Notes under the pieces: generated by a model
Databases searched by the model: none
Told to the model about the DNA's origin: nothing
Seen by the model: only the letters and a program-made list of their open reading frames with translations
IMG/VR virus record: IMGVR_UViG_3300044608_001836
Location: 1 to 32,654 of that record
Reading direction: 5' to 3' (one strand)
DNA length: 32,654 nt
Source of the DNA: a virus
Part shown: one piece after another, positions 5,779 to 28,094 of the stretch
How the letters are laid out: every line of letters starts with the position of its first letter
Numbering within the stretch: the stretch's first letter is position 1
Translations under genes and position numbers: made by a program

Positions 5779-7525
5779 AACTCATCTCCTTTTGTAAAGC
5801 TTCTAACGTTCGATACAGATACGGGGTTAAATCCAATCTTGGATCCGCAGCCATCGGAAGATCCGGTGATTGCGGGTGGGGCGTCTGCATCATTCCCCCC
5901 ACTAGCTTGGCAAACTGAGAGTAAGCACTCTGCAATTCGTTAACCATCCTGAACGGGAACCCAGATAACATCTCGGCCCGTTCCTCATCCGTCTTAGACG
6001 GGAAGAGGTATTTCAGTGCTTCAATGCTATCAACACCTAATTCTTGCAGATTTCGTACCACGATGGAGTTGTTGAGAATATCTTGTGTCGAATCTTCGTA
6101 CACAGGACCTAACCAGCGCCACAACATTGTGACATCCCCGTCAGGAATCAAGCCCATAACTCCAGGCGGAATCTGTTGAGCCTGAACACAAGCCATCATT
6201 AACTGTTTAACTTTATCGTTGTGCTGCTTAAGTGCATCTTCATATGCAGCAACTTCTTCTTCAGATGAGTCTTTGGAAGGTGAAACAGGCTTCTCAAGTC
6301 CGGCTGCTTGTGCCAGGGTGTTTTTGAAAAGTTGCTCTTCTTGATAAATAATTAATTCAAGGCAACGACAAATGCCATGAGTATAAATAGCATTTGCTTT
6401 TTTCTTTGAAGTTGCAGAAACACGTCCAAACAACGACTTGTATTCAGTTGCCGTTACACCAGCAGAAATTGAAAGTTCATCAACACCGCCAAGAGCAGTA
6501 CGAATCTCTTCTCGGTACTGACGTGCAAATGCATTTTGGTCACCAGTGATAGCATCTGGGACGATGTACCCAACACGGTCATTTGGCTCCAGGTTGGCAA
6601 TGACGCGTGGTACGCGGATGGTACCGTCAACTCCACGACTAATTGGATCAGACTTAAACGTCGACCGGCTTAATGCACTGGGACTATTGAAGCCAGAGTT
6701 TGCTGCAATAGATGGACGCTGAATAGTGGTATCACCTCCAGCTTCCATAAGGTCCGTCTTAGGACGTGACGAAAGCAATGTTGGGTTACCAAAGAACTGT
6801 ACGTTCTTACGCATCGTACGAACCATTTCATCGTGAATGATGATATGGTTGGCCATTGAATCAAAGTCGCCAACGCCTTCCGTAGAGAAACCTTTTGGGT
6901 TATTAAAGATCTCAACGCAAGGAATAAAACCTAATGTATTTTTAAACGTTTTAGTTTTCCCTGGTACCGCATAGGAGGGCATGTCAAATGACATTTCACC
7001 TTCCGAATGGGTTTCTTCAATTTCGTCGGCTTTAATGGAAAGTCTAATGTAGCGCTTTGCACCCTGATCGCCTGTTACAGCCGAGCCAGTGATGCTCTTA
7101 ATGTTGATCGTGTCATTCAACCCAAAGCCCTTGCGGACTTTATAGCTGTAGATGATGACCACTTCATCTAGCTCACCATCTACGTTGTAATACGAGCGAT
7201 ATTCGTGAGCGCGGAAGTAATAGAGACGGTAGTTAAATTTGGTGGGACGGATGTAAAAAAGACCCTTTCCGTCACACAAAAAGTATTCCCAAATGGAATC
7301 CAGGCGGATATCCATCTTGTTGTACTTCAGTACGCGGTCGATAAAATCTTTGCGTTGTGCACCAAAGTTATCTTGAGATGGGAAAAATTCAACCCCTTGG
7401 CGAATGCCAAAAAGTTTCATCTGCGCAATATGAGAAGCAATGATACCTGTGTCGACGCCAACGCTCCCATCTTTTTCAAGATAAGAATTAATGATTTCCT
7501 TAAGTCGACTTACAGCGTCAGCCAC
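5207..7525 (-). CDS. Portal protein with a long overlapping C-terminal tail
   Basis: A 772-residue protein, the length of large podovirus portals. The call rests on its place between terminase and capsid and on portal-like helical stretches (DEMVRTMRKNVQFFGNPTLL; then ALGGVDELSISAGVTATEY followed by KKKANAIYTHGICRCLELI). The portal ring at one capsid vertex is the DNA channel. The start is GTG 7525 with AGAGGAG five bases before it. The conserved body ends near residue 580 (AGRYRPVDPTDEP). The remaining 190 residues are Pro/Gly/Ser-rich and read through the start of the scaffold-like gene in a different frame. Since no earlier stop exists, ribosomes must translate this tail. Confidence 0.87.
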   Translation of the reverse strand: MADAVSRLKEIINSYLEKDGSVGVDTGIIASHIAQMKLFGIRQGVEFFPSQDNFGAQRKDFIDRVLKYNKMDIRLDSIWEYFLCDGKGLFYIRPTKFNYRLYYFRAHEYRSYYNVDGELDEVVIIYSYKVRKGFGLNDTINIKSITGSAVTGDQGAKRYIRLSIKADEIEETHSEGEMSFDMPSYAVPGKTKTFKNTLGFIPCVEIFNNPKGFSTEGVGDFDSMANHIIIHDEMVRTMRKNVQFFGNPTLLSSRPKTDLMEAGGDTTIQRPSIAANSGFNSPSALSRSTFKSDPISRGVDGTIRVPRVIANLEPNDRVGYIVPDAITGDQNAFARQYREEIRTALGGVDELSISAGVTATEYKSLFGRVSATSKKKANAIYTHGICRCLELIIYQEEQLFKNTLAQAAGLEKPVSPSKDSSEEEVAAYEDALKQHNDKVKQLMMACVQAQQIPPGVMGLIPDGDVTMLWRWLGPVYEDSTQDILNNSIVVRNLQELGVDSIEALKYLFPSKTDEERAEMLSGFPFRMVNELQSAYSQFAKLVGGMMQTPHPQSPDLPMAADPRLDLTPYLYRTLEALQKEMSYAGRYRPVDPTDEPRTAVSSPEQLRDSSGSGAQQLPSGSGGVPSGDRLPPSDSSSEYQLPIRPYSVRPPIPTGGSTGGESLGIGVQQGGEPAERTSSIPVPGSTVSSDDLYPGQLRTSPKPGYLELGSPDLINQPGLIAQLFPNFVESFLSGRGGLPGSEPGKPSSDRRVRGGSSGPAKPVRPSTRRNAR

Positions 7526-19038: not shown

Positions 19039-19167
19039 TAGAAACTATTTGCTTACTAAATTCTTGATATTTGTATTTTACGTGGTGTTATGCGAAAAAT
19101 AGATGCTATAGACTAAGAACATTGCTGAAGTTTAACGTCCAATTAGGGCAAAAACTAATTTTTTACA
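19039..19167. promoter_or_regulatory. Divergent intergenic region between late and early blocks
   Basis: 129 AT-rich bases separate the first minus-strand virion gene from the first plus-strand gene and should hold both promoters. Candidates such as TATAGA near 19109 (plus) and TAAAAT (minus) are visible, but neither has a convincing partner box. A 6-bp inverted repeat AATTAG/CTAATT at 19141-19160, followed by TTTT, sits just before the plus-strand ATG and could be an operator or a leader hairpin. Confidence 0.45.
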
Positions 19168-19731: not shown

Positions 19732-19904
19732 ATCCACACATTTCGGGCGCTATTTAGGGTCAAACCCCTTGCTACTACACGGTTCAAATAGGACAGTGAT
19801 CTGATTGTGATCAGATAAGACTGTTTAATTCCGATGAATTAGCTCGGGATTACACGTCAAGCTGGACGTTAAACGTAGCATCAAACCCACATCAACTCAA
19901 CGCC
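19732..19904 (+). promoter_or_regulatory. Leader/control region of the early cluster with three hairpins
   Basis: No gene is visible here. Three inverted repeats are packed together. The first, ATCTGAT/ATCAGAT at 19799-19816, is flanked by ACAGT/ACTGT. The second is a 9-bp stem TAATTCCGA/TCGGGATTA (one T-G pair) at 19826-19852. The third is the repeated leader hairpin ACGTC/GACGT at 19854-19869. The first could be an operator (a perfect 7-bp dyad with a 4-base gap). Together they could fold into a structured 5-prime untranslated region for the gene at 19905. Confidence 0.5.
19854..19875 (+). promoter_or_regulatory. Leader hairpin element, copy 1
   Basis: Stem ACGTC/GACGT with loop AAGCTG, followed by TAAACG. 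The ATG of the next gene is 36 bases after the stem. It shares layout, though not stem sequence, with copies at 22002, 22445, 25209 and 25713. Confidence 0.6.
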
Positions 19905-20096
19905 ATGCGTTATCAATTCCCCAACGTAGCTCCAGTCATCTGTGGCTTTGCAGTCCTCATTGGTATCGGTACGCAAGTAACCGTACACCAATTGGACAAA
20001 GCAACAGCACAGCAATGTGCGAACCACGACTGGCCCAAGGAAGCACACGATGTCCACATGGACTGGTGTGCTGCCAACAGCTACCCAACCAACTGA
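19905..20096 (+). CDS. Small membrane-anchored protein with Cys pair and HDWP motif
   Basis: A 63-residue protein with one N-terminal transmembrane segment (residues 8-26, VAPVICGFAVLIGIGTQVTV) and a short C-terminal domain with two Cys (QCANHDWPKEAHDVHMDWCA). From memory, similar small proteins with a THDWP-like motif occur in marine cyanophages and cyanobacteria, with no known role. The Cys would face the periplasm or the cytoplasm depending on orientation. The leader is C/A-rich without a Shine-Dalgarno site. The stop lies inside the tRNA-like element. Confidence 0.78.
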   Translation: MRYQFPNVAPVICGFAVLIGIGTQVTVHQLDKATAQQCANHDWPKEAHDVHMDWCAANSYPTN

Positions 20097-20137
20097 GTAA
20101 CAGGCGTGATGCCGAGGGATCGAATCCCTCACTCAGT
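20092..20137 (+). ncRNA. tRNA-like acceptor/T-arm element A
   Basis: A 7-bp outer stem (ACTGAGT/ACTCAGT) is stacked without gap on a 5-bp stem (GAGGG/CCCTC) with a seven-base loop ATCGAAT, one base from the tRNA T-loop consensus. The 15 bases in place of the D and anticodon arms hold only a 3-bp hairpin (GGC/GCC). There is no CCA after the stem (ATTGCC follows). The element begins in the last codon of the 63-residue gene. A similar element lies at 20457. It could be an mRNA 3-prime end or processing signal; its function is unknown. Confidence 0.55.
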
Positions 20138-20168
20138 ATTGCCTCCAGCGGAGATAGGCACCGCACAC

Positions 20169-20462
20169 ATGGAGATATCCATGGACCTGACAACAGGTTG
20201 GCAGAAGCATTCCAATGTACCTGGTGGTTATCACCTGGTGTACCACGACACCTGGATTGGTGAAGTATCCATTGTCACTGGACCGAAAGGTTCAGGGCTA
20301 ATGGCAGCTAACGATCCAGGTCAAGAACCCACTTACGAAGTGTGGTTCCCAGGAATGGTGAATCCAACCGGTCACTTAACCCTTGATGAGATCAAAGGAA
20401 TCATCAAGTACATGCGTCAACACGAGGAAGAACGCATGATGTATGCCGACGAAGACAACTGA
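20169..20462 (+). CDS. Hypothetical early protein
   Basis: A 97-residue soluble protein of unknown function, starting at ATG 20169 (MEISMDLTTG) or four codons later at 20181. The earlier in-frame ATG near 20109 lies in the tRNA-like element and is less likely. The first part is beta-like (GGYHLVYHDTWIGEVSIVTG). A C-terminal helix reads LDEIKGIIKYMRQHEEERMM. The stop lies inside the second tRNA-like element. Confidence 0.7.
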   Translation: MEISMDLTTGWQKHSNVPGGYHLVYHDTWIGEVSIVTGPKGSGLMAANDPGQEPTYEVWFPGMVNPTGHLTLDEIKGIIKYMRQHEEERMMYADEDN

Positions 20463-20503
20463 TCCGTCTAAGCGGGAGGCAGGGTGCAAACCCCTGCCCA
20501 GTT
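20457..20503 (+). ncRNA. tRNA-like acceptor/T-arm element B
   Basis: This has the same layout as the element at 20092. An outer 5-bp stem AACTG/CAGTT stacks directly on a 7-bp stem (GGCAGGG/CCCTGCC), 12 pairs in all, as in a tRNA acceptor plus T arm. The seven-base loop TGCAAAC is one base from a T-loop. A 3-bp CCG/CGG hairpin sits in the place of the missing arms. It also starts in the last sense codon before a stop and is followed by ATTGCC. The two copies share little primary sequence, so structure is what is kept. Confidence 0.55.
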
Positions 20504-20538
20504 ATTGCCACAATGCCGTGGCATCTACACTACACAAC

Positions 20539-20712
20539 ATGGGTATCCGCAAAGGACTAGCCAATGCACTCATCTCAACAGCAGCAATGCTGGAGAGTGA
20601 CAAATCTAAGGAGTATGTCAGCACCAAGCTGAATGAATACCGTATACGTGCAGCAGCACTGCTGATGCCTAACGATATGGCATTCGTCATTACTCCCAAG
20701 ACTGAACTCTGA
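20539..20712 (+). CDS. Small helical early protein
   Basis: A 57-residue protein (MGIRKGLANALISTAAMLES, then KEYVSTKLNEYRIRAAALLM) of unknown function, mostly one amphipathic helix. I chose ATG 20539, after a C/A-rich leader (CTACACTACACAAC). A longer frame upstream would run through the tRNA-like element. A double-hairpin terminator-like repeat follows the stop. Confidence 0.62.
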   Translation: MGIRKGLANALISTAAMLESDKSKEYVSTKLNEYRIRAAALLMPNDMAFVITPKTEL

Positions 20713-20717
20713 CTTCT

Positions 20718-20763
20718 GCACTAAGGGCTTACGGGCCTTTACTGCAGGACTCAACATCCTGTC
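20718..20763 (+). terminator. Double-hairpin terminator-like repeat, copy 1
   Basis: GCACTAAGGGC leads into a hairpin (AAGGGC...GCCTT, 20723-20739) followed by TTTA. A second hairpin CAGGA/TCCTG with a seven-base loop follows at 20745-20761. The element follows a CTCTGA stop exactly as does the copy at 21301, and about 30 of 46 positions match it. It is probably a weak terminator or mRNA end-protecting structure between small genes. Confidence 0.6.
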
Positions 20764-20786
20764 ATCAACACTACCTCAATTCAACA

Positions 20787-21059
20787 GTGACAACACCTGC
20801 ACTAGTCTACAAACCATCCGCCGAACAACAGTACCGCGTCACATGGTATGGCGGCGAATCAACCCAGTTTCACTTTGAGAAGCTGTGGAATACATTCGAC
20901 CCAGACACCGATGCCGAATGGCAAGAGTGGCTAGACCGTGACGTACGTACACTTGGCGGTGGTGTACCAACAAGTATGAAGGAGATGCTCATGGAAATGG
21001 AGGACTACTATCATTACTCCATTGACATGGAACTAGAGCGCAAGCTTCAACACATGTGA
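20787..21059 (+). CDS. Hypothetical early protein
   Basis: A 90-residue acidic, aromatic-rich protein (QYRVTWYGGESTQFHFEKLW, then DPDTDAEWQEWLDRDV) of unknown function. The start is GTG 20787 after a C/A-rich leader (CTCAATTCAACA); the next ATG is much further in. The C-terminal helix is Met/Glu-rich. The next gene follows after 35 bases. Confidence 0.68.
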   Translation: MTTPALVYKPSAEQQYRVTWYGGESTQFHFEKLWNTFDPDTDAEWQEWLDRDVRTLGGGVPTSMKEMLMEMEDYYHYSIDMELERKLQHM

Positions 21060-21094
21060 TCCTTCTCAACACACTCAACTCAACTCAACTGATC

Positions 21095-21295
21095 ATGAAA
21101 GACAACTACCTCTCTAACGCTGTGCTGGCCATTGTTATGGGCGTAGGAGCAGGCATGCTCTTATCCGTAGGAGCACAGAAGTTACTCAACAACTATCACG
21201 TCAAGCATTGCCCAGCGAAAGCAGGGCATCAACTGATATACATGCATAGCTTTCTAGGCGATGCATACTATTGCCTGGATAAGCGTACACTCTGA
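21095..21295 (+). CDS. Small membrane-anchored protein with Cys pair
   Basis: A 66-residue protein with an N-terminal transmembrane segment (residues 8-28, NAVLAIVMGVGAGMLLSVGA) and a short tail with two Cys (KHCPAKAGH ... AYYCLDKR). The layout is the same as the 19905-20096 protein, though the sequences differ. ATG 21095 follows CTCAACTCAACTCAACTG; the upstream in-frame start would lie in this leader. The function is unknown; an envelope-modifying early protein is a guess. Confidence 0.72.
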   Translation: MKDNYLSNAVLAIVMGVGAGMLLSVGAQKLLNNYHVKHCPAKAGHQLIYMHSFLGDAYYCLDKRTL

Positions 21296-21300
21296 CGTTT

Positions 21301-21346
21301 GCACTAAGGGCCTTCGGGCCCTTTCTGCAGACCTCATCGTCTGCAC
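21301..21346 (+). terminator. Double-hairpin terminator-like repeat, copy 2
   Basis: A strong first hairpin AAGGGCC/GGCCCTT closes a TTCG loop through C-G (the very stable cUUCGg type) at 21306-21323 and is followed by TTTCT. The second hairpin is a 7-bp stem TGCAGAC/GTCTGCA at 21326-21345. It starts six bases after the stop of the 66-residue gene. It is homologous to the copy at 20718. Confidence 0.7.
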
Positions 21347-21370
21347 ACACTCAACCTAATTACAGACTGA

Positions 21371-21568
21371 ATGAAACACACGGTCCGATTATCACCAGGG
21401 CGATTCGTCCACCTAGATTCTTACCATGTGTCTCATGAGACTCGCTTTAGTAAGATCTGCGTGGTAGCCCTATCATTTATCATGTCCGCAATCACAGTAT
21501 CTGCTGTGGTCGGCATTGATATCACCAACCCAACTCCTACTCAACACCATGACAACACTCAGCGCTAA
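21371..21568 (+). CDS. Small membrane protein
   Basis: A 65-residue protein. A basic, His-rich N-terminus is followed by one transmembrane segment at about residues 29-49 (ICVVALSFIMSAITVSAVVG) and a short Thr/Pro/His tail. It is the third small single-span membrane protein in this stretch. The last 20 bases overlap the start of the next gene. The function is unknown. Confidence 0.65.
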   Translation: MKHTVRLSPGRFVHLDSYHVSHETRFSKICVVALSFIMSAITVSAVVGIDITNPTPTQHHDNTQR

Positions 21569-21890
21569 CACCAAACTTATCGAGGATCGCATTCAACAAC
21601 TCTGCGAGACTCTCCAAGATAAGTTCTACAAACAGTACAACAACCCCGTAGCTTTCGAAGTTAAGCGCGGGGTTAAGTACTACAAGATCATCCATGTCTC
21701 TAGTCCTGGTACCAAGTATGAAGGCAGATCAGTCCATGCATTTGTCGCAAGACAGACAGGGACTGTGTATAAGCCTGCATCATGGAAGGCACCAGCGGAA
21801 CATGCACGGTACCAACTACTAGATGACCAATCATTTGAAACCTGCCTACACAATTGTGACTGGGCGGGTTCATACCTTTATATGAGGTAA
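21549..21890 (+). CDS. Conserved phage protein with KPASWKAPA ... WAGSYLY motifs
   Basis: A 113-residue soluble protein. Residues 28-110 contain FEVKRGVKYYKIIHV, SVHAFVARQTGTVYKPASWK and WAGSYLYMR. From memory this pattern is frequent in small proteins of marine cyanophages and other phages, all without known function. ATG 21549 was chosen because it follows the usual C/A-rich leader (CCTACTCAACACC) and the family begins with a helix such as TKLIEDRIQQLCETL. It overlaps the membrane protein gene by 20 bases. Confidence 0.78.
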   Translation: MTTLSANTKLIEDRIQQLCETLQDKFYKQYNNPVAFEVKRGVKYYKIIHVSSPGTKYEGRSVHAFVARQTGTVYKPASWKAPAEHARYQLLDDQSFETCLHNCDWAGSYLYMR

Positions 21891-21920
21891 GTATAGGGGT
21901 CACCCCCTGACTCCCACCTG

Positions 21921-21988
21921 AACAGCCAGCACCAAAGTAATGGCTGTTTAGTTATTAAGATTTTTGATAAACAACGGTTATTAAGATT
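21921..21988 (+). promoter_or_regulatory. Hairpin plus 12-base direct repeat in intergenic gap
   Basis: An 8-bp inverted repeat AACAGCCA/TGGCTGTT (21921-21948) is followed by two copies of GTTATTAAGATT at 21951-21962 and 21977-21988. The hairpin with TTTA after it may end the upstream transcript. The repeats, 26 bases apart and AT-rich, could be paired protein-binding sites or part of a promoter for the helix-turn-helix gene at 22052. Confidence 0.5.
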
Positions 21989-22001
21989 CCAAGTATTAGA
22001 T

Positions 22002-22030
22002 GGACCTGAGTATGTCCTTAAACTACTCAC
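22002..22030 (+). promoter_or_regulatory. Leader hairpin element, copy 2
   Basis: Stem GGAC/GTCC with loop CTGAGTAT, then TTAAACTACTCACC. The ATG lies 35 bases after the stem. It is nearly identical to copy 3 except for a compensated pair change in the stem. Confidence 0.75.
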
Positions 22031-22051
22031 CATCCACTCCACTTGACTCCA

Positions 22052-22426
22052 ATGAAATCACGCATCTCCGTCCTTAAAGAAGACCAGATCTGGGAACTGC
22101 GTTGCAAAGGTTATCGCTACGATCTGATCGCTAGCATTGTCAACTGCAGTCCCATATCCATGACTAAGGTCCTCCGCAGGGTGAGGCAACGTCCTCCCCT
22201 CAAGGAAGACCCAATCAAACGTGGACGCTACCGTGGCTTCTTAAGTGATGCCCAGGTAAATGACATTCGTAACCGTGCTAAGTACAATGAATCCATTGGG
22301 TTTATTGCCAGGGCTTACGACATGACGCCAGCGGCCATCTATGCAATCGTAACGAACAAGACCTATAAGGAACCTTGTCGTGATGATGCATTCATCCCCA
22401 ACTTTACCAATAGACTCATGCGTTAG
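22052..22426 (+). CDS. Double helix-turn-helix protein
   Basis: A 124-residue basic protein with two helix-turn-helix units: residues 8-44 (LKEDQIWELRCKGYRYDLIA, then SMTKVLRRV) and 64-106 (LSDAQVNDIRN, IGFIARAYDMTPAAIYAIV, TNKTY). The second matches the HTH in the zinc-ribbon protein at 28884 (DIR...IA..Y...I..IV..K). This HTH is often found as the DNA-binding tail of phage HNH endonucleases; here there is no nuclease domain. It is probably a site-specific DNA-binding regulator. ATG 22052 follows the leader hairpin; the TTG upstream is unlikely. Confidence 0.75.
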   Translation: MKSRISVLKEDQIWELRCKGYRYDLIASIVNCSPISMTKVLRRVRQRPPLKEDPIKRGRYRGFLSDAQVNDIRNRAKYNESIGFIARAYDMTPAAIYAIVTNKTYKEPCRDDAFIPNFTNRLMR

Positions 22427-22444
22427 TACATAAGTACTACGTAT

Positions 22445-22473
22445 GGTCCTGAGTATGACCTTAAACTACTCAC
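22445..22473 (+). promoter_or_regulatory. Leader hairpin element, copy 3
   Basis: Stem GGTC/GACC with loop CTGAGTAT, followed by TTAAACTACTCACC. The ATG is 35 bases after the stem, the same distance as copy 2. The A-T pair of copy 2 has become T-A here, keeping the stem intact. Confidence 0.75.
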
Positions 22474-22494
22474 CGTTCCAACTCAATTCAAACC

Positions 22495-22701
22495 ATGAGA
22501 GACCTTGCATTCATTGATGAGCAACGTAATGCAGACTTGCTTGATGCCATGGCAGACATTGCCTATGAGCAGGAGCAAGCCATGCGTGAGTCCAATCAAT
22601 CTGATTGGGATGGCATTGACGAGATCTCTGTAGAGGAACGTTATGCCTGCGATCATTACAATGAAAGGTTTGCTTACCCATCCATTTACCACGGTGACTG
22701 A
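22495..22701 (+). CDS. Small acidic early protein
   Basis: A 68-residue acidic protein (DEQRNADLLDAMADIAYEQE, then DWDGIDEISVEERY) of unknown function. ATG 22495 follows leader hairpin copy 3 and a C/A-rich stretch (CCAACTCAATTCAAACC). The next ATG is only two bases after its stop. Confidence 0.68.
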   Translation: MRDLAFIDEQRNADLLDAMADIAYEQEQAMRESNQSDWDGIDEISVEERYACDHYNERFAYPSIYHGD

Positions 22702-22703
22702 CC

Positions 22704-23162
22704 ATGACTAAAGCAACTCAACGTACTCAAGTGTGGGATGAGGATCCAGTGATCCTCTTCATCACACTAATTTCAATCTCAATCACACTCATCGGAGATC
22801 TCATCTCATGTCTCTTCAACCTGAACAACTGCTCATCGCAGACGCACTCGGCTACGAACCCTTCGACCAAGAAGAAGGTGAGCAGCAGTTCCAAGCAGAG
22901 ACAGACTTCCAGGACGCACCCAAAGGCGCCATCGCCTGCACTGGTAACGTCTACAGAACCAAGCGAGGAGTCCTCAGGTGCTACTGGATCCCAGCCGGTG
23001 GCAACTACTCAGCCCAGGACAAGGAGGATCTCGAAGGATGGTACGACATCCCAAGCAACGAAGACATCGAGACGTGGACGTTCGACAGTTGCTGTCCTAC
23101 CCCAGCAGGAGATGAAGTCGAACCAGACCACCCAGATTCCTGGCTTAGGATTCTCGGCTTGA
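22704..23162 (+). CDS. Membrane-anchored protein overprinted on the next gene
   Basis: A 152-residue frame starting two bases after the previous stop. The first 35 residues lie in otherwise non-coding DNA and contain a convincing transmembrane segment (residues 15-38, DPVILFITLISISITLIGDL). The remaining 118 residues overlap the 22808-23218 gene in another frame and are Ser/Thr/Lys/Arg/Pro-rich, typical of sequence forced by an overlapping frame. Since no stop comes earlier, translation from ATG 22704 must run into the overlap. The alternative is that 22704-22807 is only a leader for the next gene. Confidence 0.45.
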   Translation: MTKATQRTQVWDEDPVILFITLISISITLIGDLISCLFNLNNCSSQTHSATNPSTKKKVSSSSKQRQTSRTHPKAPSPALVTSTEPSEESSGATGSQPVATTQPRTRRISKDGTTSQATKTSRRGRSTVAVLPQQEMKSNQTTQIPGLGFSA

Positions 23163-23218
23163 TCCAACCTATCTCACATAACACTAGCGTTATGATGACA
23201 TTCGCTATTCGCGAATAG
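22808..23218 (+). CDS. Acidic early protein
   Basis: A 136-residue acidic protein (LLIADALGYEPFDQEEGEQQ; then GVLRCYWIPAGGNYSAQDKE and WYDIPSNEDIETWTF) of unknown function. A compact beta-rich domain is likely at residues 40-100. ATG 22808 follows CTCATCGGAGATCTCATCTC, which has a GGAG at longer than normal distance. Codon choice looks natural here, so this is the main frame of the overlap with 22704-23162. The stop lies within a 14-base palindrome. Confidence 0.75.
   Translation: MSLQPEQLLIADALGYEPFDQEEGEQQFQAETDFQDAPKGAIACTGNVYRTKRGVLRCYWIPAGGNYSAQDKEDLEGWYDIPSNEDIETWTFDSCCPTPAGDEVEPDHPDSWLRILGLIQPISHNTSVMMTFAIRE
23205..23218. promoter_or_regulatory. 14-base perfect palindrome
   Basis: CTATTCGCGAATAG reads the same on both strands and is extended by ATTC/GAAT one mismatch further out. 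It ends at the TAG stop of the upstream gene and lies six bases before a possible small gene. A homodimer operator is the likely reading; a near-palindrome also lies at 23178-23193. Confidence 0.5.
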
Positions 23219-23223
23219 AGAAT

Positions 23224-23397
23224 ATGATTTCAACCATGTGCACTACACTCCTGTGCCTGGCTCAATACTTTGGGTCGGGCACAACATATACACAGTCATA
23301 CAATGCAGTTGCATTCAAAGTCCAAGATACTTTTTACTTCTGTACCAAGGCATCTGGACTATATAACTGCGTAACTAATCAAGGTCGATACCACTGA
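23224..23397 (+). CDS. Possible 57-residue small protein
   Basis: A frame from ATG 23224 (or 23236) to TGA 23397 with a hydrophobic, Cys-containing N-terminus (MISTMCTTLLCLAQYFGSGT) and an aromatic C-terminal part (FKVQDTFYFCTKASGLYNCV). It could be a short secreted or membrane-associated peptide. It fills an otherwise empty gap and overlaps the convergent gene at 23379-23810 by 19 bases. There is no Shine-Dalgarno site or usual C/A leader, so the evidence is modest. Confidence 0.4.
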   Translation: MISTMCTTLLCLAQYFGSGTTYTQSYNAVAFKVQDTFYFCTKASGLYNCVTNQGRYH

Positions 23398-23810
23398 GGA
23401 TTCGACTGTTGATAATTGTATATAGTCTCTTCTCTTAGCTGTTGCGCAGGTGAGAGAGGAGACATCACATCATAAGTATCCCCGCCAGGCCCAAGGATTG
23501 CATTACTTTGTTGCATCACTTGAGGCTTGGCACCAAACCTAAATCTTGCTTCGATTGACGGATCGTTTACTCCGACATTCAAGCCAAAGTTATTACCCAT
23601 TACACCAAATTGTCCAGTCATTGGATTCAAGTTGACTGATCCAGTATCATCTTTGAATTCCATTGACCCACGATTAAATAATGAGCCAAATACATTGCCT
23701 AACTGCTGCACATCCGCAGGTGCAGACGGGTTATTAAACTGCGTTGACAACAACGTATCTTTTAACGCAGGGCCCCAAGCACCTGCTAAGCGTGTACCAA
23801 AGTTAGGCAT
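23379..23810 (-). CDS. Lone minus-strand virion-like protein in the early region
   Basis: A 143-residue protein of unknown function starting at ATG 23810 (MPNFGTRLAGAWGPALKD). It is rich in Gly, Asn, Gln and Pro (NNFGLNVGVNDPSIEARFRF), with a polar Gln/Tyr C-terminus. In composition and strand it resembles the virion genes left of 19038, not the small charged early proteins around it. It is probably a minor structural gene expressed late from its own promoter. The plus-strand 102-codon frame opposite it looks like a shadow. Confidence 0.7.
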   Translation of the reverse strand: MPNFGTRLAGAWGPALKDTLLSTQFNNPSAPADVQQLGNVFGSLFNRGSMEFKDDTGSVNLNPMTGQFGVMGNNFGLNVGVNDPSIEARFRFGAKPQVMQQSNAILGPGGDTYDVMSPLSPAQQLREETIYNYQQSNPQWYRP

Positions 23811-23890
23811 CAATCTAAAGTTGTTTTTACAATAATAAGACAGGGGTATTGCCAGATAACTACTGGCCTACCCCCCACACCCCCACTAGA

Positions 23891-23944
23891 AGTACCAGAG
23901 GCACACTTTAATCTATAAGAGTTACCTCTGTACTGCACACCATT
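23891..23944 (+). promoter_or_regulatory. Leader hairpin before the 149-residue gene
   Basis: A 10-bp stem (AGTAC-AGAGG/CCTCTGTACT) with one bulged C and a 33-base loop ends 17 bases before ATG 23961. It could also serve as a bidirectional control element, since the minus-strand gene starts about 80 bases to its left. Confidence 0.5.
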
Positions 23945-23960
23945 CACTCACTTACAAACC

Positions 23961-24410
23961 ATGACTAAGCACTACTCCTTCACAGAGACAGACATCACCT
24001 TCATCCATGATGCTCTCTGCTCACTAGCAGAAGTACTCACTGCAGATGATGTGGTACACCAGCATAAAGACTTGGTTATTGCCAGGCTTGCTGAGGTAAC
24101 TGACATCATTGATTCTCAGATCAATGCTCCGTTTAAACCTACATCATTCCTCAATGAATACTACAAGCTTGCTGAAGTTCTCGAAGAACTGAAAGCTATC
24201 TCTCAACGTGAGAGCAAGCGTCACGAAGTGGATCAACATCTCACTCCCTCCATGCTTGCCATGGTGGATGATGAAATTATCCCCATGCTTGAGAACGAGA
24301 TGGACTACGACCCATCAGATGAAGACCTTGGCTATGGCGGTGAGCCGCCTATGACAGCAGACGAAATGCACACAGCTGCATGGCGTCAGCACCAGGAGCT
24401 TCACAGCTAA
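23961..24410 (+). CDS. Acidic helical early protein
   Basis: A 149-residue acidic protein of unknown function. The N-terminal 85 residues are mainly helical (FTETDITFIHDALCSLAEVL; LNEYYKLAEVLEELKAI). The C-terminal part has an acidic stretch (ENEMDYDPSDEDLGYGGEPP) and a short His/Gln-rich end. ATG 23961 follows the C/A-rich CATTCACTCACTTACAAACC. Highly acidic proteins of this kind in early regions are sometimes DNA mimics or host-takeover factors, but nothing specific supports that here. Confidence 0.72.
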   Translation: MTKHYSFTETDITFIHDALCSLAEVLTADDVVHQHKDLVIARLAEVTDIIDSQINAPFKPTSFLNEYYKLAEVLEELKAISQRESKRHEVDQHLTPSMLAMVDDEIIPMLENEMDYDPSDEDLGYGGEPPMTADEMHTAAWRQHQELHS

Positions 24411-24441
24411 CAGCCCTACCGCAAGGTTAAGGAAACATTAA

Positions 24442-24487
24442 GACCATTGGTCATGGCTTGACTGCCCTGGTAGACTTGCCATGACCA
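24442..24487 (+). promoter_or_regulatory. Two mutually exclusive hairpins before the 67-residue gene
   Basis: GACC at 24442-24445 can pair with GGTC at 24449-24452. The same GGTC is part of a perfect 10-bp stem TGGTCATGGC/GCCATGACCA at 24448-24487. Only one of the two can form at a time. The arrangement could act as an attenuator-like or ribosome-controlled switch in the 105-base gap, which also holds CCGCAAGG, seen again at 28109. Confidence 0.45.
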
Positions 24488-24515
24488 CACTCAACTCACA
24501 CTACGTACCAATCAA

Positions 24516-24719
24516 ATGTCTGACAGCTTGCGCATCCCAGACTCAATTGATCTTCAACGACTCCAAGCTATGCAGCTTGTAGCCAAGATGAAAGAATCAG
24601 CTGACAAACATGGTATTGGTTTCATCGGGGGCTTTGTTGCCCCCGATGGACAAAAGTTCATCATGACAAATATGGATGATGATGACACTCAAGCACTCCT
24701 ACCTGACAACCTGAAATGA
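24516..24719 (+). CDS. Small phage protein with a strong internal hairpin
   Basis: A 67-residue protein of unknown function. A helical N-terminus (SIDLQRLQAMQLVAKMKESA) leads to a beta part (GIGFIGGFVAPDGQKFIMTN) and an acidic end. Codons 36-44 contain a perfect 10-bp inverted repeat in the DNA. ATG 24516 lies 28 bases after the hairpin region, in a C/A-rich leader. The next gene starts within its stop (ATGA), so the two are coupled. Confidence 0.7.
   Translation: MSDSLRIPDSIDLQRLQAMQLVAKMKESADKHGIGFIGGFVAPDGQKFIMTNMDDDDTQALLPDNLK
24623..24648. repeat. Perfect 10-bp inverted repeat inside a gene
   Basis: CATCGGGGGC and GCCCCCGATG flank a six-base loop. The stem is GC-rich and would be very stable in RNA. 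There is no T run, so it is not a standard terminator. It encodes IGGFVAPD, so it was kept in spite of codon constraints. Confidence 0.8.
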
Positions 24720-25015
24720 ACACGACTCACAAATTGATGATCGACGGAATCATTGATACCTTCAACTTTGAAAAAGTTCATGTTGCCATGACAGTACTTG
24801 ACTGGCAATGGGCATCAAGAGAAGGTAGGGGTTATGCAGTACCAACAATTGCAGAACTCAAAGCAAAGGCCTATTACTTACTACAAGAATCCATTACAGA
24901 AACATGTGTTTCATCTGGTGGATTTGAAGCTAAGTATCAGCCTGCAGACAATAGCGATTCGGAGTATTTCGAATTGAAATTCATTCTTTGCCACGAGGAT
25001 TCCTACGATGACTGA
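24716..25015 (+). CDS. Widespread phage protein of unknown function
   Basis: A 99-residue protein. The pattern FNFEKVHVAMTVLDWQWA, VPTIAELKAKAYYLLQES, SSGGFEAKY and FELKFILC matches, from memory, a small protein common in phages of many hosts, whose role is unknown. ATG 24716 overlaps the upstream stop and its own stop overlaps the next start (ATGACTGA), so three genes are translated as a chain. Length is normal for the family. Confidence 0.78.
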   Translation: MNTTHKLMIDGIIDTFNFEKVHVAMTVLDWQWASREGRGYAVPTIAELKAKAYYLLQESITETCVSSGGFEAKYQPADNSDSEYFELKFILCHEDSYDD

Positions 25016-25205
25016 CAAGTCACCTATCAACTTTGACAAGACAATTGCTGGATTCAATGTCACTGAACATGGAATCAAATCGTTTACTAAGTCGATTAAA
25101 CTTGGGCCATTCCGGGTAACACTTAACGCTAGAGAATCTGGTGTACGTGGATCTATCTCATTACCTGGCACAGGCTTGAGTAAACGCAACATCAAGTTGT
25201 TCTGA
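25008..25205 (+). CDS. DUF4236-like small protein
   Basis: A 65-residue protein. The central region (FTKSIKLGPFRVTLNARESG, then SISLPGTGLSKRN) matches the signature of DUF4236, whose members have a KS.KLGPFR..LS..G start and a GLPGTGLSYR end. The function of that domain is unknown. Here the middle glycine-rich part is shortened. ATG 25008 is coupled to the previous gene. A leader hairpin follows the stop by three bases. Confidence 0.75.
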   Translation: MTDKSPINFDKTIAGFNVTEHGIKSFTKSIKLGPFRVTLNARESGVRGSISLPGTGLSKRNIKLF

Positions 25206-25208
25206 TCC

Positions 25209-25236
25209 AAGGACCTGGGATGTCCTTAAACTCATC
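25209..25236 (+). promoter_or_regulatory. Leader hairpin element, copy 4
   Basis: Stem AAGGAC/GTCCTT with loop CTGGGAT, followed by AAACTC. The ATG is 32 bases after the stem. Here the TT of the TTAAAC tail takes part in the stem. Confidence 0.7.
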
Positions 25237-25258
25237 CACTCCACCTCAACATAATCTC

Positions 25259-25450
25259 ATGAACAGCACTGAACTACACGCCATGATTGCCCGCATGGAC
25301 AGCTATGGCGGATCATTCGTCTCATCTATTGCACAAGCATTGCGCTTTGCTGATCCAACGAATCGGCAGCGTTTGCTTGATGCATTCCCTGACCTCGTCC
25401 AACAGTATGGACCTGAAGGCCGGTTTGCCAAAGCCAAGCAACTCACATAG
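25259..25450 (+). CDS. Small early protein
   Basis: A 63-residue protein (ELHAMIARMDSYGGSFVSSI, then LRFADPTNRQRLLDAFPDLV) of unknown function, mainly helical. It resembles, from memory, small phage proteins beginning with a similar MIARMDSYGGSFV pattern. ATG 25259 was chosen because the earlier in-frame ATG at 25220 lies inside the leader hairpin. Confidence 0.68.
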   Translation: MNSTELHAMIARMDSYGGSFVSSIAQALRFADPTNRQRLLDAFPDLVQQYGPEGRFAKAKQLT

Positions 25451-25459
25451 GTGTAACTC

Positions 25460-25708
25460 ATGATTGTTTTGTTAATCGAAGACACATTCATTGATGGCAA
25501 CGATGTCACAGTTACAGCAGTGGTTGACGACATGCGTCTCATCCATCGGTCAACTTACCTTGACCCTGAAGAATATGCTCCTGCGTTATGCAGGGCTAGC
25601 TTCGAACTGGATGAGGGAGAACAAATCCCTCTTGACGAAGATGGCTTCTGCAGTTATCTTACTCACCTCGAGCCTAACTGGGAACTACTTCCAGTAGACA
25701 ACGACTAA
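25460..25708 (+). CDS. Acidic early protein
   Basis: An 82-residue acidic protein of unknown function. A beta-like N-terminal half (LIEDTFIDGNDVTVTAVVDD) is followed by PEEYAPALCRASFELDEGEQ and a C-terminus ending WELLPVDND. It starts nine bases after the previous stop, probably in the same transcript, with no Shine-Dalgarno site. Confidence 0.68.
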   Translation: MIVLLIEDTFIDGNDVTVTAVVDDMRLIHRSTYLDPEEYAPALCRASFELDEGEQIPLDEDGFCSYLTHLEPNWELLPVDND

Positions 25709-25712
25709 CCGT

Positions 25713-25740
25713 ACGTCCTGGACATGACGTTAAACTGTCC
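25713..25740 (+). promoter_or_regulatory. Leader hairpin element, copy 5
   Basis: Stem ACGTC/GACGT with loop CTGGACAT, followed by TAAACTGTCC. The ATG of the PcfJ-like gene is 40 bases after the stem. The stem bases equal those of copy 1 while the loop resembles copies 2-4. Confidence 0.72.
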
Positions 25741-25769
25741 ACTCACTACGAACTCACTACGAACTTACC

Positions 25770-27515
25770 ATGGAATTCCGTCTTCCTTCTAACCTCCAAT
25801 CAGAACTACTGGCTTACGATCCCAAGTTTAAACAACTGCACCAGGAACAGAACCCTAAGGTTACTAAGGCTAAGCCTAAGTTTCCACTTGGCGCTGTATT
25901 TGATTTGATTCCTGCTGATGTCATCAGACCTGCAGCAGTAGAAGAAGCAGTAACTAGCATCAACTCCAGGGGTATAGAAAATCGTCACCATCGATTTACC
26001 AAGGTGGTAAATATTGCTACACCTACTGCACGTACTATCACACATGCTGTCATCTATCACTATGAGAAAGTGTGGTATGCAGCATGGCTACCACCTAAAG
26101 GACACGAAGATGACTATGTGTATGGCTATGCTTACGCTTATAAGAATCTAGATTCAGTACGCAAGTCTTTGCTTCATATCTTGATTGAGAACAACAGCAA
26201 GCGTACTGTTGAATACGTTAAGTATGGACGGAGTGAATTCTGTGTTGTACGTCACAATGTAACCAAGCAAGACATTGCTAATGGCATGACTGCAAAGATG
26301 TGGAACCCAGGATATATTTCGTACGGCAAAGGCGTTTACATTAGAGACGCTGCTAATGCTTTTGAATCTACGCTGTCTGAAACAATACCTAAATGGCATG
26401 ATTCACGTGGCTTCTTTGATCGCATTGCTATCAACGACTGGGCCACCATCCTTCAGCTCAAAGGATATGCACGTTATTGGGATCAGTTTGATGATGCAGC
26501 ACAAGCCAAGCGTGATCTACTTCCTTCTGCTGATCTTATCTATAATCTTGCAGCTACTTACCCAAGTAATAACTCATTGCATGAGCATGATACTTATCTT
26601 GCAAGTCGCGTTATTCATATCATTGGCAAACCATACTTCCGCAAATGGATGCAATCACAATGTGATGAGGCCATTGCAATGTTCCAGGATCCAGATAATA
26701 ACTTGTTTTACAAGATAACTCAACCATGGAAACGTATTCACAAGCTAATCAAGTCTATTGATTACGTTAATAAGATTTGGCCTGACTGTCCCATTGATTT
26801 CTATCAATCACACGTGCAAGAACTATTGGGCTTGCATCTTGACCGTAGGACAACAGACAAAGCAATTACCTGGTTGCGTGCCAACATGCAGCCATCTTCT
26901 TTCTTTAATATGATTGCATTGCATTATGCAAAGCAAGCAGAAGATGTAGCTCTTGCTCATCGGCATACCTGTTACATAGCTACCGAGACTGGAGTCAATA
27001 CATTCTTCATAAGTGAATGGCATGACACCTTGTCAATGCTTGGCGACGTACTAGACCATGGCATGCCTATGCCTACACCAAAGCGTTGGCGTCTCACTGA
27101 GTTCCATGATCATGTGCAAGCAGAAGCATGGAAGATCAAGCATCCAAACGTTAGCCTGCCCCAGGATCTATTCCCTGCTCCTGTCAAGGTAGAGGTGGGT
27201 GATGAGCGTTGGTCATTCTTCCAGCCTCATGACACACATCAATTGTCAGCATGGGGCCAGGCTGTACGTAACTGCGTCGGCAATGCCAAGGACTATGCTA
27301 ATGGCGTACGCAAGAAGAAACATTTCATTGTGCTTTGTATGGTTGACAACAAGCCTCAGTTCACTGTTCAACTTAAGGTTGACATGGGTATGATGACAGT
27401 CAGCCAGATTGTTGGCATCTCTAACCAAAGGTTGACGGATGAGCAAAAGGATGCCTACACACAAGCCTTTAGCAAGGCGTTGCATTCCCGCAATGATGAG
27501 CTAGAGTCTGCGTAG
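25770..27515 (+). CDS. PcfJ-like protein
   Basis: A 581-residue protein, the largest in the early region. The C-terminal 100 residues match the PcfJ-like domain first seen in a conjugative plasmid gene: AWGQAVRNCVGNAKDYANGV (Cys near 502), an FIVLCMVDNKPQFTVQL strand pair and SQIVGISNQ. The domain is common in phages and mobile elements; its biochemical role is unknown. Residues 1-470 are soluble and rich in His, Tyr and Trp, without a recognised fold. ATG 25770 follows leader hairpin copy 5 and a C/A-rich leader. A long inverted repeat follows the stop. No plasmid-transfer genes are nearby, so a role in transfer is not implied. Confidence 0.82.
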   Translation: MEFRLPSNLQSELLAYDPKFKQLHQEQNPKVTKAKPKFPLGAVFDLIPADVIRPAAVEEAVTSINSRGIENRHHRFTKVVNIATPTARTITHAVIYHYEKVWYAAWLPPKGHEDDYVYGYAYAYKNLDSVRKSLLHILIENNSKRTVEYVKYGRSEFCVVRHNVTKQDIANGMTAKMWNPGYISYGKGVYIRDAANAFESTLSETIPKWHDSRGFFDRIAINDWATILQLKGYARYWDQFDDAAQAKRDLLPSADLIYNLAATYPSNNSLHEHDTYLASRVIHIIGKPYFRKWMQSQCDEAIAMFQDPDNNLFYKITQPWKRIHKLIKSIDYVNKIWPDCPIDFYQSHVQELLGLHLDRRTTDKAITWLRANMQPSSFFNMIALHYAKQAEDVALAHRHTCYIATETGVNTFFISEWHDTLSMLGDVLDHGMPMPTPKRWRLTEFHDHVQAEAWKIKHPNVSLPQDLFPAPVKVEVGDERWSFFQPHDTHQLSAWGQAVRNCVGNAKDYANGVRKKKHFIVLCMVDNKPQFTVQLKVDMGMMTVSQIVGISNQRLTDEQKDAYTQAFSKALHSRNDELESA

Positions 27516-27566: not shown

Positions 27567-27791
27567 ATGACTGAGTACACCGACGACCAACTGCTGGCAC
27601 AAGCACTTGCCAATCTTGGTGAGTACATACATACTCATGGTACGCCTGACTATGTATTGATTGATGCAGACGATCCTCGTAACGAGGAAGACTATGACAC
27701 ATGGAGTTATGGTACTGAGCCATTACCCCATGACCACACTTGGCAGCATACATCAATTGATGTATGCATAAGTCCAAGTGAGCCCGAGTAG
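27567..27791 (+). CDS. Small acidic protein whose end overlaps the tRNA gene
   Basis: A 74-residue acidic protein (YTDDQLLAQALANLGEYIHT, then DYVLIDADDPRNEEDYDTWS) of unknown function. The last ten bases, including the TAG stop, form the 5-prime acceptor strand of the tRNA-Leu gene. Processing of the tRNA would therefore cut this mRNA before its stop codon. Confidence 0.68.
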   Translation: MTEYTDDQLLAQALANLGEYIHTHGTPDYVLIDADDPRNEEDYDTWSYGTEPLPHDHTWQHTSIDVCISPSEPE

Positions 27792-27857
27792 CCCAGCGGA
27801 AGAGGCAAGCGACTTAAAATCGCTCCAGCGTGAGTTCGAATCTCACCTCGGGTACCA
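27782..27857 (+). tRNA. tRNA-Leu (anticodon UAA) with short variable region
   Basis: A 76-base tRNA with encoded CCA. The acceptor stem GCCCGAG/CTCGGGT has discriminator A. The D stem is GCC/GGC, the anticodon stem AGCGA/TCGCT with loop CTTAAAA (anticodon TAA) and the T arm GTGAG/CTCAC with loop TTCGAAT. The variable region is only five bases (CCAGC), whereas bacterial tRNA-Leu normally has a long variable arm. The anticodon region (ACTTAAAAT) is otherwise like bacterial tRNA-Leu(UAA). There is no group I intron, unlike many cyanobacterial copies. It would read UUA codons. Confidence 0.9.
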
Positions 27858-27881: not shown

Positions 27882-28094
27882 ATGTCAGCTCAAAACAATT
27901 ATCTTGACATCATTGCTGCTTGCATAGGAGATGTTTCAGACTCCATTGATGCAATTGATACAAAAGACATTGTACTTTCAATCAGTGAACTAGCCAATGT
28001 CTTGAAAGAGACTAATAAACTATTGAAAGAAGTAGCTGATAGCAATAAAGCTATTGCTATGAATGCTTATCAATATGTAGCAAACAAAGTTTGA
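27882..28094 (+). CDS. Small helical protein
   Basis: A 70-residue protein, almost entirely amphipathic helix (YLDIIAACIGDVSDSIDAID, then ELANVLKETNKLLKEVADSN), probably an oligomerising coiled coil. The function is unknown. It starts 25 bases after the tRNA 3-prime end, so tRNA processing would create its mRNA 5-prime end. Confidence 0.66.
   Translation: MSAQNNYLDIIAACIGDVSDSIDAIDTKDIVLSISELANVLKETNKLLKEVADSNKAIAMNAYQYVANKV

Follow-up and report, generated by a model that had tools for sequence, protein, structure and literature searches.

Our results showed that five short intergenic elements in a viral genome record, IMGVR_UViG_3300044608_001836 of IMG/VR, are close to certainly H-type RNA pseudoknots, and that elements of the same build are carried by many other phages, in which they probably act like the coremin RNA of plant viruses, stalling a 5'-3' exonuclease of the host and shielding the downstream cistron. 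The window analysed here is the whole record of 32,654 bases, which is probably a genome fragment, and among isolates Synechococcus phage S-EIV1 (KJ410740), a freshwater cyanophage, is closest to it, with 75% identity in a portal-like protein. An earlier note had described five hairpins with stems of 4-6 bp, and all of them were found on the + strand of the window at the positions given there, each followed by the TTAAAC tail. The hairpin is not the unit, however. Each one is stem 1 (S1) of an H-type pseudoknot in which the loop pairs with the bases directly past TTAAAC, and the CTGRRTAT-like stretch taken for a loop is actually one half of a second helix (S2), which had been overlooked. A simple hairpin is ruled out by this pairing of the loop with the 3' segment.

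In the copies at 22002, 22445 and 25713, TGRRYA in the loop is paired over its full length with the six bases past TTAAAC. The element is built as S1 (4-6 bp), C, S2 (6 bp), T, S1', TTAAAC and S2', 28 nucleotides (nt) in total with a 4-bp S1. The consensus is S1 of the form (N)GWC/GWC(N'), one C, S2 of TGRRYA paired to TRYYCA, one T, and the TTAAAC spacer across stem 1; we refer to this octaloop form as class 1. A relative (contig L020, downstream protein 78% identical) retains all five copies, which are listed below with their single-stranded segments L1 to L3 where needed.

22002..22029, + strand, class 1 pseudoknot with covariation and an ortholog in L020, ATG at 22052: S1 GGAC 22002-22005 / GTCC 22014-22017; L1 C 22006; S2 TGAGTA 22007-22012 / TACTCA 22024-22029; L2 T 22013; L3 TTAAAC 22018-22023.
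22445..22472, + strand, class 1 pseudoknot, both stems altered in the L020 ortholog with pairing retained, ATG at 22495: S1 GGTC 22445-22448 / GACC 22457-22460; S2 TGAGTA 22450-22455 / TACTCA 22467-22472; TTAAAC 22461-22466.
25713..25741, + strand, class 1 pseudoknot beginning 4 nt past the stop at 25708, ATG at 25770: S1 ACGTC 25713-25717 / GACGT 25726-25730; S2 TGGACA 25719-25724 / TGTCCA 25736-25741; TTAAAC 25730-25735.
25209..25238, + strand, divergent copy beginning 3 nt past the stop at 25205 and conserved in L020, ATG at 25259: S1 AAGGAC 25209-25214 / GTCCTT 25222-25227; 7-base loop CTGGGAT; TTAAAC 25226-25231, then TCATCCA.
19854..19879, + strand, class 3 copy before the first + strand open reading frame (ORF) of the early region, ATG at 19905: S1 ACGTC 19854-19858 / GACGT 19865-19869; loop AAGCTG; TTAAAC 19869-19874; GTAGC 19875-19879; 4-bp S2 GCTG 19861-19864 / TAGC 19876-19879.

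The copy at 25209, with its seven-base loop and TTAAACTC, could form at best a shifted 4-bp S2 (GGAT 25218-25221 / ATCC 25234-25237). The copy at 19854 belongs to a third subtype, GTC-RAGCTG-GAC-GTTAAAC-GYAGC (class 3), found in the window and in seven contigs (L006, L008, L010, L011, L012, L019 and L020), with one compensated S1 pair, GTC/GAC to GCC/GGC. Each of these two could be a variant form of the same fold or a product of drift, and they are given less weight.

The variation of the stems is that of a conserved RNA structure. Stem bases that differ and stay paired had been noticed before, and the comparison of orthologs confirmed this at 22445, where GGTC/GACC in the window is GGAC/GTCC in L020 and TGAGTA/TACTCA is TGAGCA/TGCTCA, so that both helices are still paired. 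IMG/VR was searched with the pattern CCTGRRYATGNCNTTAAACTR, in which the core was fixed and most pairing partners were left free, and the 28-nt element was present in at least 119 contigs. Among 103 distinct 28-mers both stems covary across phages: 95.6% of the cells are paired in S1 (19-55% when slid) with 85 double changes, and 94.7% in S2 (24-37% when slid) with 67 double changes, while none of 2000 shuffles matched the observed pairing. The G-C and C-G core pairs of S1 occur in 103 of 103. A separate count on 46 of these 28-mers, picked by hand, gave 95.7% paired vs 80.0% shuffled and 27-44% slid, and a covariation score of 0.542 vs 0.233. The five sites are not a product of chance, because a stricter descriptor gave 214 matches with an octaloop and 113 with a hexaloop in the collected sequences, in which copies from related contigs are not independent, as compared to one match in the same sequences reversed. 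Standard nested folding predicted S1 in two window copies and S2 in three; such folding cannot reveal a pseudoknot. Several annotated isolates differ in the spacer (AAAAAC, CTAAAC, TTGTAAAAC). At least seven class 1 copies, two of them with the 9-base loop CTTGGGCAT, lie on one contig of a Bacteroidetes bin, WAS_Bin_9 (L172:4712-7694 and L163), a bin in which no RNase J reached the cut-off.

The copies are intergenic and lie on the sense strand, with an orientation that tracks the downstream gene. Only 7 of 204 octaloop copies fall inside an ORF of at least 80 amino acids (aa), vs 385 of 600 random positions. In 67 of the 204 class 1 copies S1 starts 5 or 6 nt past the upstream stop codon, a sharp peak; this distance falls within the expected footprint of a terminating ribosome. 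Positional conservation starts and ends with the knot, and the flanks have no fixed promoter or ribosome-binding site. The gap from stem to ATG is 31-39 nt across the five window copies, close to the 32-40 bases given in the earlier note, and the idea of a fixed distance holds within the phage group of the window, where the ORF often starts 24-38 nt past TTAAACT (mode 27), but not across all phages. The element is not confined to early genes, and other phages have it too. Class 1 copies lie ahead of the scaffold gene in Staphylococcus phage B166 and Lactobacillus phages phiEF-1.1 and phig1e, and a divergent one does so in Oenococcus phage phiS11. The neighbour is a primase gene in crAss-like cr7_1 and, after ribonucleotide reductase, a glutaredoxin gene in Celeribacter phage P12053L. 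Other copies stand beside tRNAs (Nostoc NMeng1, Arthrobacter Molivia, Mycobacterium Labelle), and eight class 1 copies are found within 80 nt upstream of a tRNA gene. S-EIV1 itself has at least three copies before genes, which are unannotated in record KJ410740.

The coremin of beet necrotic yellow vein virus (BNYVV), GUCCGAAGACGUUAAACUAC, consists of hairpin 1 (hp1) with a GUC/GAC stem, a spacer and then a small hairpin; its loop follows YGAD or YGNNAD, spacer nucleotides 18 and 19 are crucial, and it halts the exonuclease Xrn1 just ahead of hp1 (PMC10520033). Coremin is an exonuclease-resistant RNA (xrRNA-C) occurring in Benyvirus, Cucumovirus and other RNA viruses (PMC10520033, PMC5869530), and its structure was unsolved as of the 2023 paper (PMC10520033). 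Both elements are short and found in intergenic regions, and they share S1 and spacer as GUC-C...AU-GAC-GUUAAACU, i.e., an hp1 of GUC/GAC or its swapped form, a loop that starts with C and ends with A-U, and the spacer (G)UUAAACU. All five window copies have GWC/GWC directly before TTAAAC. In contrast to coremin, which has a separate hairpin 2 (hp2), class 1 has an octaloop whose middle six bases pair past the spacer, and it is carried by DNA phages in the gaps before genes and tRNAs. The octaloop C-TGRRYA-T of the window class 1 copies departs from YGAD/YGNNAD, keeping the first C and the final A-U, and hp2 is absent past the class 1 spacer, where the segment pairs back with the loop. Because of these departures in loop and hp2, the window copies are not claimed as coremin proper. 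Positions 18 and 19, past UUAAAC, are TA at 22002 and 22445, TG at 25713, TC at 25209 and GT at 19854; over class 1, the T at position 18 was fixed by the search and position 19 is R, with G in 80%.

The canonical hexaloop coremin, GTCCGNNATGACGTTAAACTA, is itself present in DNA phages and prophages, and we refer to it as class 2. A search of IMG/VR for coremin with any loop extension of 0-5 nt found the pattern in at least 120 contigs; among the matches listed, the hexaloop gap is exact in 110 of 119 copies and a tetraloop occurs in one. The commonest loops are CGAAAU and CGCAAU; CGAGAU and CGGAAA also occur, and all four have been reported as Xrn1-resistant. When one or two positions were released at a time, U18A19 was kept in 63 of 63 of the matches listed, the AAA of the spacer in 63 of 65, the loop G in 73 of 79 and the loop A in 90 of 91. 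Judged by sequence, class 2 obeys most of the loop and spacer rule that was measured for Xrn1 resistance in vitro. Class 1 and class 2 replace each other at one syntenic place: Enterococcus phage SEsuP-1 has class 2 at the pre-scaffold place occupied by class 1 in related siphophages, and a family search confirmed the scaffold and capsid genes at this shared place. Class 1, with the hp1, loop edges and spacer of coremin, is a pseudoknotted version of it, and we infer an equivalent fold, in which the single loop A that possibly contacts U18 in coremin would be extended to a helix of six pairs. The long-loop forms, being true pseudoknots, suggest what the hidden fold of the plant-virus coremin may be. 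In 31 of 80 unique class 2 copies (L180-L298, e.g., L181:10740, L203:7471 and L241:4641) a terminator-like hairpin follows within 90 nt, mostly after 11-29 nt, an arrangement that could give a small stable RNA comparable to a viral subgenomic RNA, and seven copies begin 0-18 nt past a tRNA gene. In S-CRM01 (L301:2501-2528) a coremin hexaloop fills nearly the whole gap between an annotated tRNA-Glu, which ends at 2499, and a tRNA-like sequence from about 2528 that scores just under the Rfam tRNA cut-off.

In the function that we favour, the polycistronic mRNA of the phage would be cut or stripped of its 5' triphosphate, and a host 5'-3' exonuclease (RNase J where present, as in cyanobacteria and Firmicutes) would digest it up to the knot and stall there. 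The next cistron would survive with a trimmed leader of about 20-30 nt ahead of its start codon, through a block that is mechanical and works cistron by cistron. This agrees with the 5-prime mRNA stabiliser that the earlier note had listed as one option among several. In vitro, a flaviviral xrRNA halts the bacterial enzyme RNase J1, and does so without specific contacts (PMC5760640). RNase J is a 5'-3' exonuclease of Firmicutes and cyanobacteria; in the latter it is reported to be essential, and E. coli has none (PMC10989914). Of 5426 E. coli genomes, none matched the class 1 query and 7 contained class 2. The knot as a shield of cistrons is preferred because of these three points together: the block of RNase J1 by a flaviviral xrRNA, the distribution of RNase J, and the near-absence of the element from E. 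coli. The class 2 pattern was found in 0 of 200 Bacilli genomes of a by-class sample, a sampling that is uninformative. Flavivirus and tombus-like xrRNAs share with the phage element the proposed action of a knotted RNA that mechanically halts 5'-3' exonucleases; the phage element is far smaller and has no sequence in common with them, and the ring around the 5' end is known for these viral RNAs.

Several observations weigh against this function. RNase J scored over the family cut-off in only 11 of the 20 genomes or bins with class 1, though a bin may lack part of its genome or include stray phage contigs; the Bacteroidales and Omnitrophota bins with class 1 lacked it over the cut-off, and RNase J as the sole target is weakened by the other 9. 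Class-1-like elements also occur on two small Acinetobacter plasmids (L339:1501 and L340:1501), in non-coding stretches near replication genes. Class 1 has no hp2, which is required in the BNYVV coremin, its loop is of 8 nt and its position 19 is mostly G; the copies at 25209 and 19854 violate the rule for positions 18 and 19, and 11 class 2 hexaloops end in C, an ending that does not work in vitro in the BNYVV context. Eukaryotic ribosomes are slowed by coremin during scanning as well, and an effect of the element on translation is possible. The identity over about 20 nt may be convergence. The target enzyme could vary from host to host, or the element could serve a broader protection of 5' ends.

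Among the other explanations, control of downstream translation by a phage or host protein bound to the pseudoknot is unlikely, though it carries some weight. The leader of T4 gene 32 is an H-type pseudoknot bound by its single-stranded DNA-binding protein, so the topology is in common, the knot lies near the start codon in the phage group of the window, and one S-EIV1 copy (L140, 30513, minus strand, class 1) precedes a single-stranded DNA-binding protein gene by about 30 nt. On the other hand, the sequence differs from that of the T4 leader, and the phage element is multi-copy before unrelated genes (scaffold, primase, glutaredoxin, PcfJ-like) and tRNAs. Translation control would be meaningless for the eight copies upstream of tRNA genes, and the distance to the start codon differs between phage groups. 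A gene for this protein lies downstream of one of three S-EIV1 copies and of no window copy; autoregulation like that of T4 gene 32 was a lead from S-EIV1 and is not general. We likewise regard it as improbable that the knot is a general shield of 5' ends, or marks a boundary for processing, with endonucleases (RNase E, RNase Y, RNase III) as the enzymes concerned. Placement between cistrons and beside tRNAs suits RNA processing, and both the hosts that seem to be without RNase J and the Acinetobacter plasmid copies are in its favour. Against it, class 2 keeps to most of the rule measured with Xrn1, no conserved cleavage sequence adjoins the knot, and in E. coli, where RNase E is present and RNase J is missing, the element is nearly absent.

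Small riboswitches use compact pseudoknots as well. A metabolite riboswitch or transcription attenuator is nevertheless very improbable here, as several copies per genome stand before unrelated genes without any Rfam match, and a terminator follows within 90 nt in only 4 of 204 class 1 copies. The short attenuator proposed earlier was rejected for the window, where no T-run follows the copies and the scan found no terminator at them. The cleavage site that the earlier note had also listed is still conceivable. A promoter or operator with inverted repeats, acting as DNA, is hardly credible. The sites are repeated and partly palindromic before genes, and one Staphylococcus copy is annotated as a BPROM promoter; but recognition as DNA would not require a pair of interleaved stems to covary base by base, as they do here, and the orientation tracks the downstream gene. 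The earlier choice of a conserved RNA structure over a promoter is upheld. The sigma-70 hexamer test found no conserved -35/-10 flanks, and in the scan of the window none of the copies coincided with a promoter-like site, such sites being fewer than in shuffles.

The ORFs that follow the five copies in the window encode the products given below.

19905..20096, + strand, after the 19854 element: 63 aa, no family.
22052..22426, + strand, after the 22002 element: weak helix-turn-helix DNA-binding match (phrog_517).
22495..22701, + strand, after the 22445 element: 68 aa, no family.
25259..25450, + strand, after the 25209 element: 63 aa, phrog_15317 (unknown function).
25770..27515, + strand, after the 25713 element: 581 aa, C-terminal part PcfJ-like.

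The early region also holds a tRNA-Leu (TAA) gene at 27782-27857 on the + strand. A 53-nt repeat (81%) at 20706-20758 and 21289-21341 lies at two stop codons and contains a G+C-rich hairpin (AAGGGC..GGGCCT and AAGGGCC..GGGCCC); it has no T-run and looks like a signal for processing or for a 3' end. On the minus strand at about 19100-19165, a hairpin AATTAG..CTAATT followed by GGACGTTAAAC lies upstream of a 605-aa minus-strand ORF, and L008 has a similar hairpin near 6559 at the equivalent place, in which the pseudoknot core is absent. The minus-strand TTAAAC near 19130 and a CAAAC/GTTTG hairpin near 28085 were discarded as the core is missing in both.

None of the Rfam 15 covariance models matched the copies, with E allowed up to 5 in the window and up to 2 at six other loci, and a full-text literature search, with bioRxiv and most subscription journals outside its reach, found no description of the element. 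Exonuclease-resistant RNA is already known as a functional kind; what appears to be new is the pseudoknotted form and its occurrence throughout DNA phages. In the literature searched, xrRNAs are known from RNA viruses of eukaryotes and none was found from bacteria or DNA phages, and it has been said that xrRNAs never meet RNase J1 naturally (PMC5760640). We are evenly divided on the wider proposal that exonuclease-resistant RNAs form a large, so far undescribed class in DNA phages across several phyla of bacteria, the long-loop ones being true pseudoknots, which would shield cistrons and tRNAs by the solution that RNA viruses use against Xrn1, here against RNase J or a functional equivalent. 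If true, the element would be a portable, protein-free mRNA stabiliser for bacteria and phages and would provide a well-covarying pseudoknot model for coremin, and it would account for the retention of single cistrons and tRNAs from long phage transcripts.

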